Shown piece after piece: positions 57,167-62,264 of a DNA stretch of 64,000 bases (positions are counted from its first letter, which is position 1; each line of letters opens with the position of its first letter). The DNA comes from Arthrobacter citreus (GTDB taxonomy: Bacteria; Actinomycetota; Actinomycetes; Actinomycetales; Micrococcaceae), in NCBI RefSeq assembly GCF_009192745.1, contig NZ_VTFV01000007.1, forward strand, positions 124,001 through 188,000, given 5' to 3'. Made by a program: the position numbers and the translations under genes. Under the pieces are notes generated by a model. It was not told the origin of the DNA, ran no database searches, and saw only the letters and a list, made by a program, of their open reading frames with translations.

Positions 57167-57688
57167 GTGGAGGTTCTGTTTCTGCACGGAGCGGGCGGAT
57201 GGACCGATGATCAGCCGATCGCCGGGGAACTGCGTTCCCGGCTGAGGGTACCGGTGGCGATGCCCCGCTTTTCGAACGATGAGATGACTGCGGCGGCCTG
57301 GCTTGGCGGCATTGATACTGCCCTGGAGCCGCTGGGGACGGAGACTGTCATCGTGGGGCACTCCTTCGGAGCTTCCATGGCCCTGCTGCGCCTCGCAGCC
57401 TCTCCCCCGGAACCGCTGCCCCGGGGGATGGTGCTGCTGGCCACGCCGTTCTGGGGCTCGGAGGGCTGGCAGGGCGAGTATGCCCTGCCGCCGGGCTTCG
57501 CCCTCCCTCCGGACCTGCCGGTTTTCCTGCACCACTGCCGCGACGACGGCACGGTGCCCTTTGAACACCTTGACCGCTTCGAGGCGCTGCTTCCCGGCGC
57601 GGTGATCCGCCGCCATGACACCGGCGGACACCAGTTCGCGGACCGAATGGACGCAGTGGCCGGGGATGTGGCCGCCCTGGGCTCCTAG
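57167..57688 (+). CDS. RBBP9/YdeN-like small alpha/beta hydrolase
   Basis: Small serine hydrolase of unknown substrate. From GTG at 57167 it has 173 residues: VLFLHGAGGW, nucleophile elbow GHSFGAS, acid in HCRDDGTVPF and His in TGGHQF. The compact size (no lid) suits the RBBP9/YdeN family. The GTG is chosen for the AGGTGG site 6 nt upstream. Divergent from the SDR gene and convergent, with a 4-nt overlap, with the exporter gene. Confidence 0.82.
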   Translation: MEVLFLHGAGGWTDDQPIAGELRSRLRVPVAMPRFSNDEMTAAAWLGGIDTALEPLGTETVIVGHSFGASMALLRLAASPPEPLPRGMVLLATPFWGSEGWQGEYALPPGFALPPDLPVFLHHCRDDGTVPFEHLDRFEALLPGAVIRRHDTGGHQFADRMDAVAGDVAALGS

Positions 57689-58245
57689 ACCCCAACGACG
57701 AACGTGAGGGCGCTCCAGATGAGAACCGTCGAGATTGTGGTCCAGATAATGATCGCCACGCCCTGCCACAGGAGCACCCACCGGCGGGAGGTACCGCCAG
57801 CCACGAGGATCGACGCCGTGAACTGGGTGGGGATGGCCAGCGGGCCGAGGATGCTTGCCCCCGGAACACCGAAGCGGAGCAGCCAGCGCTTGAAGCGGAG
57901 GCGCCCCTTTGACTCCGGCTTGGCAGCACGGGCAGCGACCAGCATCGCGGTGCCGCCCGCTGCGGCCGCTGCGGCCTCCGCCCGGGCATCCACCCGGGTG
58001 GTGACGGCGGTCCGGGCACGGGAGGTAATGAGAACTACCAGTGCCACGCTGGCGAAGTTGCCGAGGGCGGCCGCAACAGCCGCAAGGACAGGGTTTAATC
58101 CGCCGACGACGCCGATCAGTGCACCGGCTTCGCCTTCCAGAAAAGGAACAGCGGCGGCGAGCATCAGGATGAACGGCTGGAGGAACTCAGGCACCTGGCC
58201 TAGAAGTTCCTGAAAGTTGTGGACGAGTTCCTGGGTGGGGTTCAT
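57685..58245 (-). CDS. Small multidrug-export family (PF06695-type) membrane protein
   Basis: The 186-residue protein from ATG at 58245 has four or five hydrophobic segments (about 18-45, 50-80, 120-140, 160-185) and the family features FLEGEAGALIG and PGASILGPLAIPTQFTA. Despite the family name, transport has hardly been demonstrated for these proteins. The 5' region carries a TTGACC-palindrome element (58305-58333) about 60 nt upstream, identical to one in front of the gene at 59571. The upstream in-frame extension to 58434 would run through that element, so the ATG is preferred. Confidence 0.78.
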   Translation of the reverse strand: MNPTQELVHNFQELLGQVPEFLQPFILMLAAAVPFLEGEAGALIGVVGGLNPVLAAVAAALGNFASVALVVLITSRARTAVTTRVDARAEAAAAAAGGTAMLVAARAAKPESKGRLRFKRWLLRFGVPGASILGPLAIPTQFTASILVAGGTSRRWVLLWQGVAIIIWTTISTVLIWSALTFVVGV

Positions 58246-58304
58246 CGAACTGATTCCTAGTCTCCTCAACGAGGGCCTGTCCCTCGGTAGTGGAAGCAGT
58301 AGAA

Positions 58305-58333
58305 ACTGTGTTCCCGGAACAGGGTCAACCCCC
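58305..58333 (-). promoter_or_regulatory. Operator-promoter element, copy 1 (for the export gene)
   Basis: On the minus strand: TTGACC followed by CTGTTCCGGGAACACAGT, with the perfect 13-bp palindrome TGTTCC-G-GGAACA. The 29 bp are identical, in inverted orientation, to 59482-59510; weaker similarity continues upstream (ggccga and cag). A palindrome directly downstream of the -35 in the spacer is the layout of MerR-family controlled promoters. Confidence 0.65.
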
Positions 58334-58496
58334 CCCTGAAATCGGCCTGCGGCCGGCCGTCCGCCCACAGCGGCGCCAGCTGATCCCTGGATGCGGCTTA
58401 CCGTTTGGCCGTGGGCCCTGCCGCGGACCGGCATACCAGGCCTAACCTGAAGACCGCGGGGCAGCTCAGGACTGACCAGGAACAGGGAGCTTCAGC

Positions 58497-59444
58497 ATGT
58501 GCACAGGCATCAGGTACACGGACGGCAGCGGCAACGTATATCTCGCGCGAAACCTGGATTGGACATTTGGCTACGGCGAACGGGTGGTGGTCACCCCCAC
58601 CGGGTACACGCCAAAGTCACCGTTTGGCGCAGTGCAGGAAATCAAGCACGCCGTTATCGGCATGGGGATTGTGGAGGAGGACACCCCGCTCTACTTCGAC
58701 TGCGGCAACGACGCCGGCCTGGCAGTTGCCGGACTGAACTTCCCCGGATACGCGAACTATGCTCCGGACCAGGTGACCGGTGCGGTCAATGTGGCCGCGT
58801 TTGAGTTCCCGCTCTGGGTGGCGGCCCAGTTCGCCACTGTGGACGAGGTCGAGGCAGCACTGGGCAACGTCGCCATCGTGGACCGGCCCATCAATGACAA
58901 GTACCCAAGTTCGCTGCTGCACTGGATCATCGGAGACGCCAGCCGGTCCATCGTCGTCGAGTACACAAGTGACGGTATGCAGGTCTTCCACGACGACGTA
59001 GATGTCCTGGCCAACCAGCCCGGATTCACCTGGCACCATGAGAACCTGCGCAACTACCTCAACCTGTCTTCCGACTTCCCTCAGGAAGTAGTGCTGAACC
59101 AGGCACATCTGACGCCGTTCGGCTCAGGCTCACTGATGCGAGGGATTCCCGGGGACTACTACTCGCCGTCGCGTTTTGTGCGGGCAGCCTACGTGCATGC
59201 CCACTATCCGCAGAAGACGAACGAAGCGGACAACGTCAGCCGCGCATTCCACACGCTGCAGCAGGTGGCCATGGTGGAGGGCAGCGCGGCCATGGGCGAC
59301 GGAGACTTTGAAAAGACCATCTACACCGGGCTGTTCTCTTCCAAGACCATGACCTACTACTGGAACACCTACGAGGATCCGGCAGTCCAGAGTGCGGCGC
59401 TCGCCGACCACAAACCCTCGGGACAGGACCTGGTAGTCGTCTAG
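58497..59444 (+). CDS. Choloylglycine hydrolase / penicillin V acylase family Ntn-hydrolase
   Basis: N-terminal nucleophile amidase acting on linear amide bonds: bile-salt conjugates, penicillin V or N-acyl-homoserine lactones, depending on the member. The 315 residues have the full catalytic set: Cys2 (exposed by Met removal), Arg18 and Asp21 (YLARNLDW), Asn81 (GLNFPGY), Asn173 (ANQPGF) and Arg226 (SPSRFVRA). No signal peptide, so the protein is cytosolic. It is flanked on both sides by identical inverted 29-bp promoter elements that face away from it. GGGAGCTTCAGC precedes the ATG. Substrate unknown; a soil organism suggests amides other than bile salts. Confidence 0.9.
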   Translation: MCTGIRYTDGSGNVYLARNLDWTFGYGERVVVTPTGYTPKSPFGAVQEIKHAVIGMGIVEEDTPLYFDCGNDAGLAVAGLNFPGYANYAPDQVTGAVNVAAFEFPLWVAAQFATVDEVEAALGNVAIVDRPINDKYPSSLLHWIIGDASRSIVVEYTSDGMQVFHDDVDVLANQPGFTWHHENLRNYLNLSSDFPQEVVLNQAHLTPFGSGSLMRGIPGDYYSPSRFVRAAYVHAHYPQKTNEADNVSRAFHTLQQVAMVEGSAAMGDGDFEKTIYTGLFSSKTMTYYWNTYEDPAVQSAALADHKPSGQDLVVV

Positions 59445-59481
59445 CATCCGGCGCGAACGCAGCCGCAGCGCAGGCCGAACA

Positions 59482-59510
59482 GGGGGTTGACCCTGTTCCG
59501 GGAACACAGT
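59482..59510 (+). promoter_or_regulatory. Operator-promoter element, copy 2 (for the unknown membrane protein gene)
   Basis: TTGACC at 59487-59492, then CTGTTCCGGGAACACAGT containing TGTTCC-G-GGAACA. Identical over 29 bp to the reverse complement of 58305-58333. It lies about 60 nt upstream of the ATG at 59571, the same distance as copy 1 from its gene. Confidence 0.65.
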
Positions 59511-59570
59511 GTTCCATGATTCGAACCAGGGCCGCCCATCCGGGGCGGACACGGTTTGAAAGGGCCGGAC

Positions 59571-60229: not shown

Positions 60230-60997
60230 TCAATCAGGGCTGCGGGTGATCCGTTCCTTGCCCTCCAGCGCCATGGCGCTCATCGTCTCCTCCGCGATCG
60301 TGTTGGCCCGGAACAGCACGTCCAGCTGTGCGTCGTTGTACAGCTCCGTGAGTGCATTCCCGAAAGTCTCAACGCCGATCTGGCTTCCCCTGGGCATGTG
60401 CTCGGCAGGATTCCTTAGCCAGGGGTAGTTGACGAGGTGCTTCACGATAATTTCGGCAACCCTCTCGGCCAGTGCCTGCCGGGTCTGATCATCGGCGTCG
60501 GCAGGCAGGTTCTCGATGTCCGGCCCCGTGTCGTCGCTCTCATCCGCAGACATCTCCCGGATGTCTTCCAGAGCTTCATCATCGTAGAACCGGGTCATGA
60601 TGTGGACGATTGAACGGTCGCTCTCCGACAGACGGGAGGCAACCGATTCAAAGCCCGCAGGCACATCCGCCGGCGCCTGGTGTTCGATGATCGCTGCGAT
60701 GTGGGCCCGGGCCTGATTCAGGGCCTCAATACGCTGCTGGAGCTCCGCGTCTACCTCCCGCAGCACCTCGGGAGTTCCCCGAGCCGTGTCCGTGGCGCTG
60801 CGCAGCTGGGACAGCGGAATGCCAAGGACTGCGAGCCTGCGGATGCGCAACAGGCTCACCAGGTGCCGCACCTCGTACTGCTTGTAGCCGTTGTAGCGGC
60901 GGTCCGGCTCCTCGAGAATACCCAGCCGGTGATAGTGGCGGACGGTGTTCACCGTTGTGCCCGCCAGGTCGGCCAGTTCACGTGTACTCCAGGACAT
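60230..60997 (-). CDS. MerR-family regulator (TipA-like helix-turn-helix)
   Basis: Transcription factor with an N-terminal MerR winged helix (about 1-70: MSWSTRELADLAGTTVNTVR, YNGYKQYEVRHLVSLLRI), a dimerisation coiled coil (about 75-115: LREVDAELQQRIEALNQARA) and a C-terminal helical domain of about 140 residues which has no metal-binding Cys and so probably senses an organic ligand. ATG at 60997 follows GGAAGGATTAGGCAC. A TTCCCG-CC-CGGGAA sequence and a stretch similar to the 58305/59482 elements lie 12 nt upstream, so it may regulate itself, the exporter, the membrane protein and the divergent FMO gene. This link is inferred. Confidence 0.87.
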   Translation of the reverse strand: MSWSTRELADLAGTTVNTVRHYHRLGILEEPDRRYNGYKQYEVRHLVSLLRIRRLAVLGIPLSQLRSATDTARGTPEVLREVDAELQQRIEALNQARAHIAAIIEHQAPADVPAGFESVASRLSESDRSIVHIMTRFYDDEALEDIREMSADESDDTGPDIENLPADADDQTRQALAERVAEIIVKHLVNYPWLRNPAEHMPRGSQIGVETFGNALTELYNDAQLDVLFRANTIAEETMSAMALEGKERITRSPD

Positions 60998-61115: not shown

Positions 61116-62264
61116 ATGCCCACCGTTCCCTTCCCTGCGCGGGGACAGTCCGAAGCCGGACCCGGCCGCATCCGCCGGGCCGGCGTCGTCGTCATCGGTG
61201 CCGGCCAGGCCGGGCTTTCCGCCGGATACCACCTGAGCAGGCGCGGTTTCACAAGCGCCCTGGCCGGAGGGTACACCGAGCGGAGCTTCGTGGTGCTCGA
61301 CGCCGGGACGGCGCCCGGAGGCTCCTGGCTGCACCGCTGGGAATCGCTGACCATGGCGACCGTCAACGGCATCTTCGACCTCCCGGGTTTCCGCCAGAAC
61401 CCTCCTGCGCCCGGGACTCCTGCCCGGATAGCAGTGCCTGAATACTTCGCGGCATTCGAGGACCGCATGCAGCTTCCGATCCTCCGCCCGGTCAAGGTCA
61501 CCTCGGTGCATCCCGCGGACGGCGACCCCGACGGCGAACTCGTTGTCGAAACCGACGCCGGAACCTGGGCCGCGCGTGCGCTCATCAACGCCACCGGAAC
61601 CTGGGACAACCCGACTCTGCCGGCCTATCCGGGACGGGAGGGCTTCGCCGGGCGCCAGCTCCACACCCGGGACTACGCGTCGCTGGACGAGTTCGCCGGC
61701 CAGCGGGTAGCGGTGGTGGGCGGCGGAATTTCCGCCATCCAGCAGCTTGAAGAGATCTCCCGGGTCGCGGAGGTGTTCTGGTACACGCGGCGGGAACCGG
61801 TTTTCCGCAACGGGCCGTTCAGTGCAGAGGCCGGGAAGGATGTAGTGTCCCGGGTGGCTGCCGACGTGGAGGCCGGAAATCCCACCGGAAGCGTGGTCTC
61901 GTATACGGACCTGCTGTGGACGCCCTATGCGCTGGCGGCGAAGGAACGCGGTGCGCTGCAGCGGCGTCCGATGTTCACCGGCATCGAGCCCGATGGGGTG
62001 CGGGAGGCTGACGGGTCGCTGACCCGTGTGGATGCCATCCTGTGGGCCACCGGGTTCAGGGCTTCGCTGGGCCATCTTGACGCCCTCCGGCTGCGCAACG
62101 AGCGCGGCGGGATCGAGGTGCACGGCACCGTGGCCGCTGCGGATCCGCGGGTGCACCTGATCGGATTCGGACCCTCCCAGTCGACAGTCGGCGCAAACCG
62201 TGCCGGGCGGGATGCTGTCCGGACCCTGCTGGAGCAGTTTGACGCTGCGCCAGCCCGGGCCTGA
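61116..62264 (+). CDS. Flavin-containing monooxygenase / Baeyer-Villiger-type flavoprotein
   Basis: Class B type FAD/NADPH monooxygenase. From ATG at 61116 it has 382 residues: FAD motif GAGQAGLSAGYHL (about 28-40), the fingerprint FAGRQLHTRDY (FxGxxxHxxxY, about 175-185), NADPH motif VVGGGISA and a C-terminal ATGFRASLGHL. All main motifs are intact. The start is chosen for AAGGAG 8 nt before the ATG. It is divergent from MerR and ends 8 bp from the convergent SDR gene. The substrate (amine, sulfide, ketone or a drug) cannot be read from the sequence. Confidence 0.88.
   Translation: MPTVPFPARGQSEAGPGRIRRAGVVVIGAGQAGLSAGYHLSRRGFTSALAGGYTERSFVVLDAGTAPGGSWLHRWESLTMATVNGIFDLPGFRQNPPAPGTPARIAVPEYFAAFEDRMQLPILRPVKVTSVHPADGDPDGELVVETDAGTWAARALINATGTWDNPTLPAYPGREGFAGRQLHTRDYASLDEFAGQRVAVVGGGISAIQQLEEISRVAEVFWYTRREPVFRNGPFSAEAGKDVVSRVAADVEAGNPTGSVVSYTDLLWTPYALAAKERGALQRRPMFTGIEPDGVREADGSLTRVDAILWATGFRASLGHLDALRLRNERGGIEVHGTVAAADPRVHLIGFGPSQSTVGANRAGRDAVRTLLEQFDAAPARA

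Follow-up and report, generated by a model that had tools for sequence, protein, structure and literature searches.

A candidate MerR-family regulon with inverted operator-promoters on both sides of a bile salt hydrolase gene in Arthrobacter citreus

The two copies of a 29-bp element that flank a bile salt hydrolase gene in Arthrobacter citreus are, as judged from sequence comparison, very probably operator-promoters under the control of the MerR-family protein whose gene lies at 60230-60997, driving the genes of a small membrane protein, here called the exporter, and of a partner membrane protein. All positions refer to the window, the whole stretch of 64,000 nucleotides that was analysed. 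Regulator, element and exporter also occur together in many further actinobacteria, a pattern that would point to a circuit for stress response. Comparison supports the regulon well; its mechanism appears to be ordinary for the MerR family, and the novelty would lie in the regulator subfamily, the operator and the target set; no published description of the regulon was found among the literature matches listed. In this way an odd repeat pair leads to a testable regulon, for which an operator consensus, a regulator and targets in several actinobacterial families can be listed. It also offers a candidate domain for ligand sensing that belongs to no named family, and connects regulation with proteins of the DedA superfamily. 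The features concerned are as follows.

57685..58245, minus strand: small membrane protein (exporter), 186 amino acids, putatively of the DedA/VTT superfamily by way of its relatives
58270..58286, minus strand: exporter leader stem-loop in the predicted transcript, 6-bp stem and 5-nt loop
58298..58328, minus strand: exporter promoter, with -35 TTGACC at 58323-58328, a 19-bp spacer and -10 TCTACT at 58298-58303; kept in relatives
58305-58325, minus strand: exporter operator, a 21-bp pseudo-palindrome
58497..59444, plus strand: choloylglycine (bile salt) hydrolase, between both promoters, with Cys2, Arg18, Asp21, Asn81 and Asn173
59487..59517, plus strand: partner-protein promoter, with -35 TTGACC at 59487-59492, a 19-bp spacer and -10 TTCCAT at 59512-59517
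59490-59510, plus strand: partner operator, found at the same place before the orthologue in two related genomes, G017 and G023
59532..59548, plus strand: partner leader stem-loop in the predicted transcript, 6-bp stem and 5-nt loop
59571..60200, plus strand: partner membrane protein, 209 amino acids, without a Pfam family, with a beta domain predicted at the N-terminus and a membrane-helix region at the C-terminus
60230-60997, minus strand: MerR-family regulator, 255 amino acids, no cysteine, all-helical C-terminal domain without a named Pfam family

The arms of the inverted repeat, at 58305-58333 (minus) and 59482-59510 (plus), are 29 nt long, 100% complementary in a repeat search and 1148 nt apart, in agreement with the preliminary description, which had read the same 29 bp at these two places. 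About 7e-9 exact inverted 29-mer pairs are expected in 64 kb at equal base frequencies, and the pair is far beyond chance. In the whole 3.55-Mb genome, mismatch-free copies of TGTTCCGGGAACA occur only at these two places of the window, and the looser TTGACNNTGTNNNNNNNACA has three matches, two of which are the window pair. Each copy was correctly placed about 60 nt upstream of a start codon (58245, minus, and 59571, plus), and the make-up of the element from TTGACC and TGTTCC-G-GGAACA was likewise read correctly, except that one base and not two separates these blocks.

The operator has the form ACC-N-TGTTCC-G-GGAACA-N-RGT and occupies 21 bp inside the 19-bp spacer. A spacer of 19-20 bp with the operator between -35 and -10 is the arrangement of a MerR regulon, and the earlier proposal of a MerR-type promoter layout is borne out by the TTGACC box, the 21-bp pseudo-palindrome and a -10 at a spacing of 19 bp. 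Spacers of 19 bp are remodelled by MerR regulators (PMC8113463, in the sections covered). Eighteen training sites, which comprise 14 distinct 31-mers, the window's two among them, were found with a pattern that specified no more than their first 20 nt; in all 18 the hexamer at spacer 19 has T as its first and last base. Across 44 distinct PWM sites the hexamer at spacer 19 agrees with TATAAT at 3.55 of 6 positions on average, versus 2.27 at the best other spacing, a peak to be read with the PWM itself including the -10 columns; none of these 44 sites has A at position 2 of the -10, and the -10 of the partner promoter (TTCCAT) is poor. A related sequence had also been claimed at the start of the merR gene, which was not supported: a PWM scan of the 64 kb at the low threshold of 8 returned the two known sites only, with none before the window merR, and in the four nearest fetched relatives (L069-L072) no site was present before merR at threshold 11. 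Elsewhere merR does carry its own copy of the element, in loci L157, L246, L188, L180, L235 and L240. A third copy, with a score of 41.3, lies in G023 (L071 5317-5347), where it is flanked by the 3' ends of an SDR and a flavin monooxygenase gene and no gene is obvious downstream.

The linked MerR is the likely regulator because of its co-occurrence with the element, the linkage of the two and a joint change of operator and recognition helix. With at most one mismatch, TTGACNCTGTTCNNNGAACA was found at 42 places in 38 of 395 family genomes, the reversed control pattern giving four matches, and the 20-nt core occurs with zero mismatches at 18 sites in 15 of the 395. A search with the C-terminal part of the MerR protein identified relatives in 33 of the 395 genomes, and all 15 zero-mismatch genomes fall within these 33. 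Within the same genus the core set and the MerR set are identical (11 of 29 genomes), and 11 further genomes of the genus have an exporter relative but neither the core nor a MerR relative; the 186-aa protein itself is matched in 44 of 99 relatives, its own genome counted, and in 22 of the 29 of the same genus. As to linkage, all 18 zero-mismatch sites have merR within 3 kb. Sixteen of the 38 pattern-positive genomes (two in the genus, 14 outside) have one-mismatch matches only and no MerR relative, and in the ten of these 16 whose loci were inspected, with about 1.5 kb on each side of the match, exporter, partner and merR genes were absent throughout. The match lies on a contig other than that of merR in G050 and G291 and 8.6 kb from it in G258, those of G258 and G291 preceding ABC ATPases. 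Eleven of the 22 MerR-bearing genomes outside the genus are without a match to the family pattern; diverged PWM sites were found near merR in most of the fetched non-genus loci, including that of G050 (L079), and were absent near merR in L142, L146, L166 and L167. Two motif-less exporter copies, L076 and L081, have no merR in 20 kb of surrounding sequence.

The association was also seen in named genomes, where we scanned the best 80 of 150 exporter relatives, from Arthrobacter, Microbacterium, Cellulomonas, Promicromonospora, Agrococcus, Cryobacterium, Actinoplanes and other genera. With a PWM score of at least 20 within 200 bp upstream of the exporter as the criterion, and with some loci ending at contig ends, the element is present in 33 of 40 loci with a merR relative versus 5 of 40 without one (Fisher p 2.6e-10, uncorrected), so that seven of the 40 merR-bearing loci among these best 80 of 150 lack a score-20 site before the exporter; six of the 33 positive loci are from Arthrobacter and overlap the family-genome set. 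A tree-aware test on an exporter tree, which held 79 of the 80 loci and the window (L243, with its exporter reading frame cut, was omitted), gave 2 and 4 starred independent pairs and was not significant and underpowered; with so few independent pairs, association and shared descent cannot be told apart on this tree.

The third line of evidence comes from the DNA-binding part of the regulator. With a loose pattern, a site was found within 2.5 kb for 58 of 68 distinct MerR proteins, and none for the other 10. Proteins with Asn17 go with T at operator index 9 in 50 of 50 cases, and those with Lys17 go with a CC..GG core in all eight and with C at index 9 in seven of the eight. On a MerR tree built without the first 75 alignment columns, which hold the DNA-binding part, residue 17 agrees with the operator core in 56 of 56 pairs, but the switch arose once, and the joint change is one concordant event, not a statistic. 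The Lys at residue 17 aligns with the Lys of CueR, and a C-Lys correlation is listed for CueR and actinobacterial sites in the covered sections of PMC5045206.

It is improbable that another of the genome's MerR proteins, and not the linked one, controls this MerR-type promoter. Such a regulator could be drawn from the 10 MerR-type HTH genes that the genome encodes, with a separate TipAS-type gene present, and would account for the five of 40 exporter loci in which the element occurs without a merR relative in the locus, some of these loci ending at contig ends. However, at the genome level the element occurs together with the C-terminal part of the linked MerR, the distance between element and merR is at most 3 kb in all 15 zero-mismatch genomes, and operator core and recognition helix change jointly.

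The gene between the promoters encodes a bile salt hydrolase, with 380.8 bits against the NF038245 cut-off of 350 and with all five catalytic residues; its best PDB match, over the full length, is 8vrx (E 1.4e-181), which we take to be the A. citreus bile salt hydrolase. The bile salt hydrolase may hint at an animal-associated life of this Arthrobacter lineage; the A. citreus strain with the described enzyme was isolated from bison faeces (PMC11736000, in the sections covered). No element points at the hydrolase gene, and it is not part of the core module. The small regulon that the preliminary description had proposed, an exporter and a partner membrane protein with the hydrolase between them, is supported for the exporter and its partner, with the linked MerR as the likely regulator on the three grounds given above. 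No gene separates the two promoters in G023 and G017, where they stand back to back with -35 boxes 17 and 39 bp apart, respectively; the exporter copy of the element is degenerate in G017. In G025 and G005 the hydrolase has the same orientation and the 209-aa gene is missing from the locus, and among the five genomes compared only the window has exporter, hydrolase, 209-aa gene and both promoters together. An alignment of the intergenic regions between exporter and hydrolase from three species has a nearly invariant operator, diverged flanks and a conserved stretch directly before the hydrolase start. The older layout was probably that of two divergent back-to-back promoters, as in G023 and G017, and the hydrolase gene would have been inserted between them later in the window lineage, an insertion that would account for the appearance of the pair as an inverted repeat around a gene.

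Two further accounts of the pair, both raised at the outset, fare less well. It is very improbable that the second copy arose from the first by recent duplication or gene conversion and has no regulatory role; the 29-bp identity does extend into the less conserved flank (GGGGG before TTGACC; compare L069), but G017 and G023, with exporters of 93% and 83% identity to that of the window, also have both types of promoter, each followed by a downstream sequence of its own. Gene conversion of a functional pair is possible and would leave the main reading, that of two operator-promoters of the linked MerR, unchanged. That the pair serves the site-specific inversion of the segment with the hydrolase is hardly credible: the perfect 29-bp inverted arms around a gene speak for it, but against it stand the single partnerless copies in many genomes, the -35 boxes of G023 only 17 bp apart with no gene between, and the same orientation of the hydrolase relative to the exporter in all three genomes seen with the hydrolase, window included. 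No recombinase was seen among the eight window genes scanned.

The regulator has a MerR winged-helix N-terminal domain (PF13411 and PF00376 above cut-off, matched by 25 of 25 aligned relatives), and its model, with a pLDDT of 89.4, consists of this usual domain, a long helix and an all-helical C-terminal domain. Foldseek alignments, in the best 50 of 285 matches, have the length of the MerR domain (99-130 columns). The label TipA-like, which the gene had been given, did not survive at the sequence level: there is no Pfam match to the TipAS domain (PF07739) in the window MerR or its relatives, and hhalign against 14 TipAS-type sequences reported one alignment, confined to columns 1-117. Membership of the TipA/TipAS class was rejected on this evidence, and the sensor domain, as far as its sequence goes, is helical but not TipAS, which leaves room for a likeness in fold. 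Membership of the metal-sensing CueR, CadR or MerR types was rejected as well, since the protein has no Cys and scores 31-39 bits against NCBIfam cut-offs near 150. The gene is convergent with the 209-aa gene and lies 29 nt from its end; on its other side, a flavin monooxygenase gene (61116-62264, plus strand) is divergent from it, ArsO-like with 290 bits, below the cut-off of 425, and this order of neighbours is also found in G025 and G005. In G022 the merR relative (L074 2621-3352, on the same contig as L204) is split over reading frames, and operator and exporter look intact.

In the proposed model, a MerR dimer would sit on the 21-bp pseudo-palindrome within a spacer which, at 19 bp, is too long for the promoter to work well. 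Binding of a compound by the C-terminal domain would untwist the spacer, and RNA polymerase would then transcribe the exporter gene leftward and the partner gene rightward. The kind of genes controlled leads us to guess at a compound active on membrane or envelope as the signal. DedA-type proteins function in lipid-carrier transport, and to our knowledge little has been established on the inducers of DedA-superfamily proteins. The model of the partner protein, based on 12 sequences and with a pLDDT of 77.9, has a beta domain followed by membrane-length helices, and a structure search gave no PDB match at E <= 0.001. In L164 and L213, too, an element precedes its gene and a merR relative is its neighbour. 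In other genomes it lies downstream of the exporter on the same strand, for example in L172, L176 and L186, whose loci contain neither element nor merR, and therefore the partner is not tied to the switch everywhere. We describe the core module as, putatively, merR and a small membrane protein of the DedA/VTT superfamily, often with a second membrane protein.

Both predicted transcripts begin with a leader stem-loop, which hints at further control of a MerR regulon at the post-transcriptional level. Defining a stem as at least 5 perfect pairs with a loop of 3-7 nt between -10 and start codon, and using leaders from L069-L081 and L168-L247, we found a perfect stem in 36 of 57 leaders; 300 shuffles gave 7.4 on average and at most 18, and control stretches inside the genes and upstream of the promoter gave 7 and 14 of 57, respectively. 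The stem begins 8-11 nt past the -10 in 26 of the 36 stem-bearing leaders; its sequence varies by lineage and its place is conserved, and in the nearest five species CGAGGG/CCCTC(G) is replaced by CGGGGG/CCCCCG, possibly in one event. By label, stems were present before 29 of 46 exporter, 3 of 4 partner, 3 of 10 merR and 9 of 51 other genes, these labels being imperfect, as at least 5 of the 9 stem-bearing and several of the 42 stemless 'other' genes are really exporters. Folding energies are weakly below those of shuffles (mean z -0.87 for 42 exporter leaders, 8 of them under -1.5, and -0.31 for 4 partner leaders), so that it is the number of stems at this place, and not their energy, that is conspicuous. 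Two of 10 leaders in the genus group g32 (L147-L156) have the stem, and stems of at least 6 were found before 8 of 35 motif-less exporters in a wider search range, a count without a control set. The stem-loop may protect the 5' end of the mRNA.

Elements also precede other types of genes, namely those of TAP-like alpha/beta hydrolases (L144, L157, L181 and L240 by Pfam, L143 and L165 by eye), ABC ATPases (L161 and L240 by Pfam, L155 by eye), GPP34 proteins (L145, L192 and L203) and, in L199, a SpoIIM-like protein below its cut-off. These further targets may point to an envelope or toxic-compound response. A more far-reaching and rather doubtful idea is that of a widespread actinobacterial envelope-stress system, in which a MerR subfamily with a helical sensor would control a DedA/VTT-type protein, perhaps a flippase for lipids or carriers, with its partner and also, depending on the lineage, genes of the GPP34-like, TAP-like hydrolase and ABC kinds; a 5' stem-loop conserved in shape and place but not in sequence would in addition protect or tune the transcripts, and in animal-associated Arthrobacter the hydrolase would tie the signal to bile acids.

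Comparison with known systems places the parts of this module as follows. The window hydrolase has the same five residues that are named for the A. citreus bile salt hydrolase (PMC11736000), a paper whose covered sections mention neither gene neighbours nor regulation. The families nearest to the window exporter would be PF06695 small multidrug export and PF09335 VTT-DedA, which are related to each other (PMC7818093, in the sections covered) and are matched by 11 and 3 of 23 of its relatives, respectively; the window protein is itself below detection for both, and its exporter label, which rests on the relatives' matches, denotes a putative transport role. The TipAS domain is helical, as is the C-terminal domain of the window MerR, the N-terminal halves align and the TipA N-domain 2vz4 is among its best PDB matches, whereas PF07739 is missing and the profile alignment stops at column 117. 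With CueR and CadR, whose sites have a 21-bp operator and 7 bp from -35 to centre (PMC5045206, in the sections covered), the window shares exactly this geometry by our own count, and CueR 1q06 is the top Foldseek match; in contrast to them, the window MerR is without cysteine and far below the NCBIfam cut-offs. BmrR and EcmrR differ in their GyrI-like sensor (PMC8113463, in the sections covered) from the all-helical, Pfam-less domain of the window MerR, but share with it the MerR-type N-terminal DNA-binding domain, the long dimerisation helix, the operator in a 19-bp spacer and membrane-protein targets.
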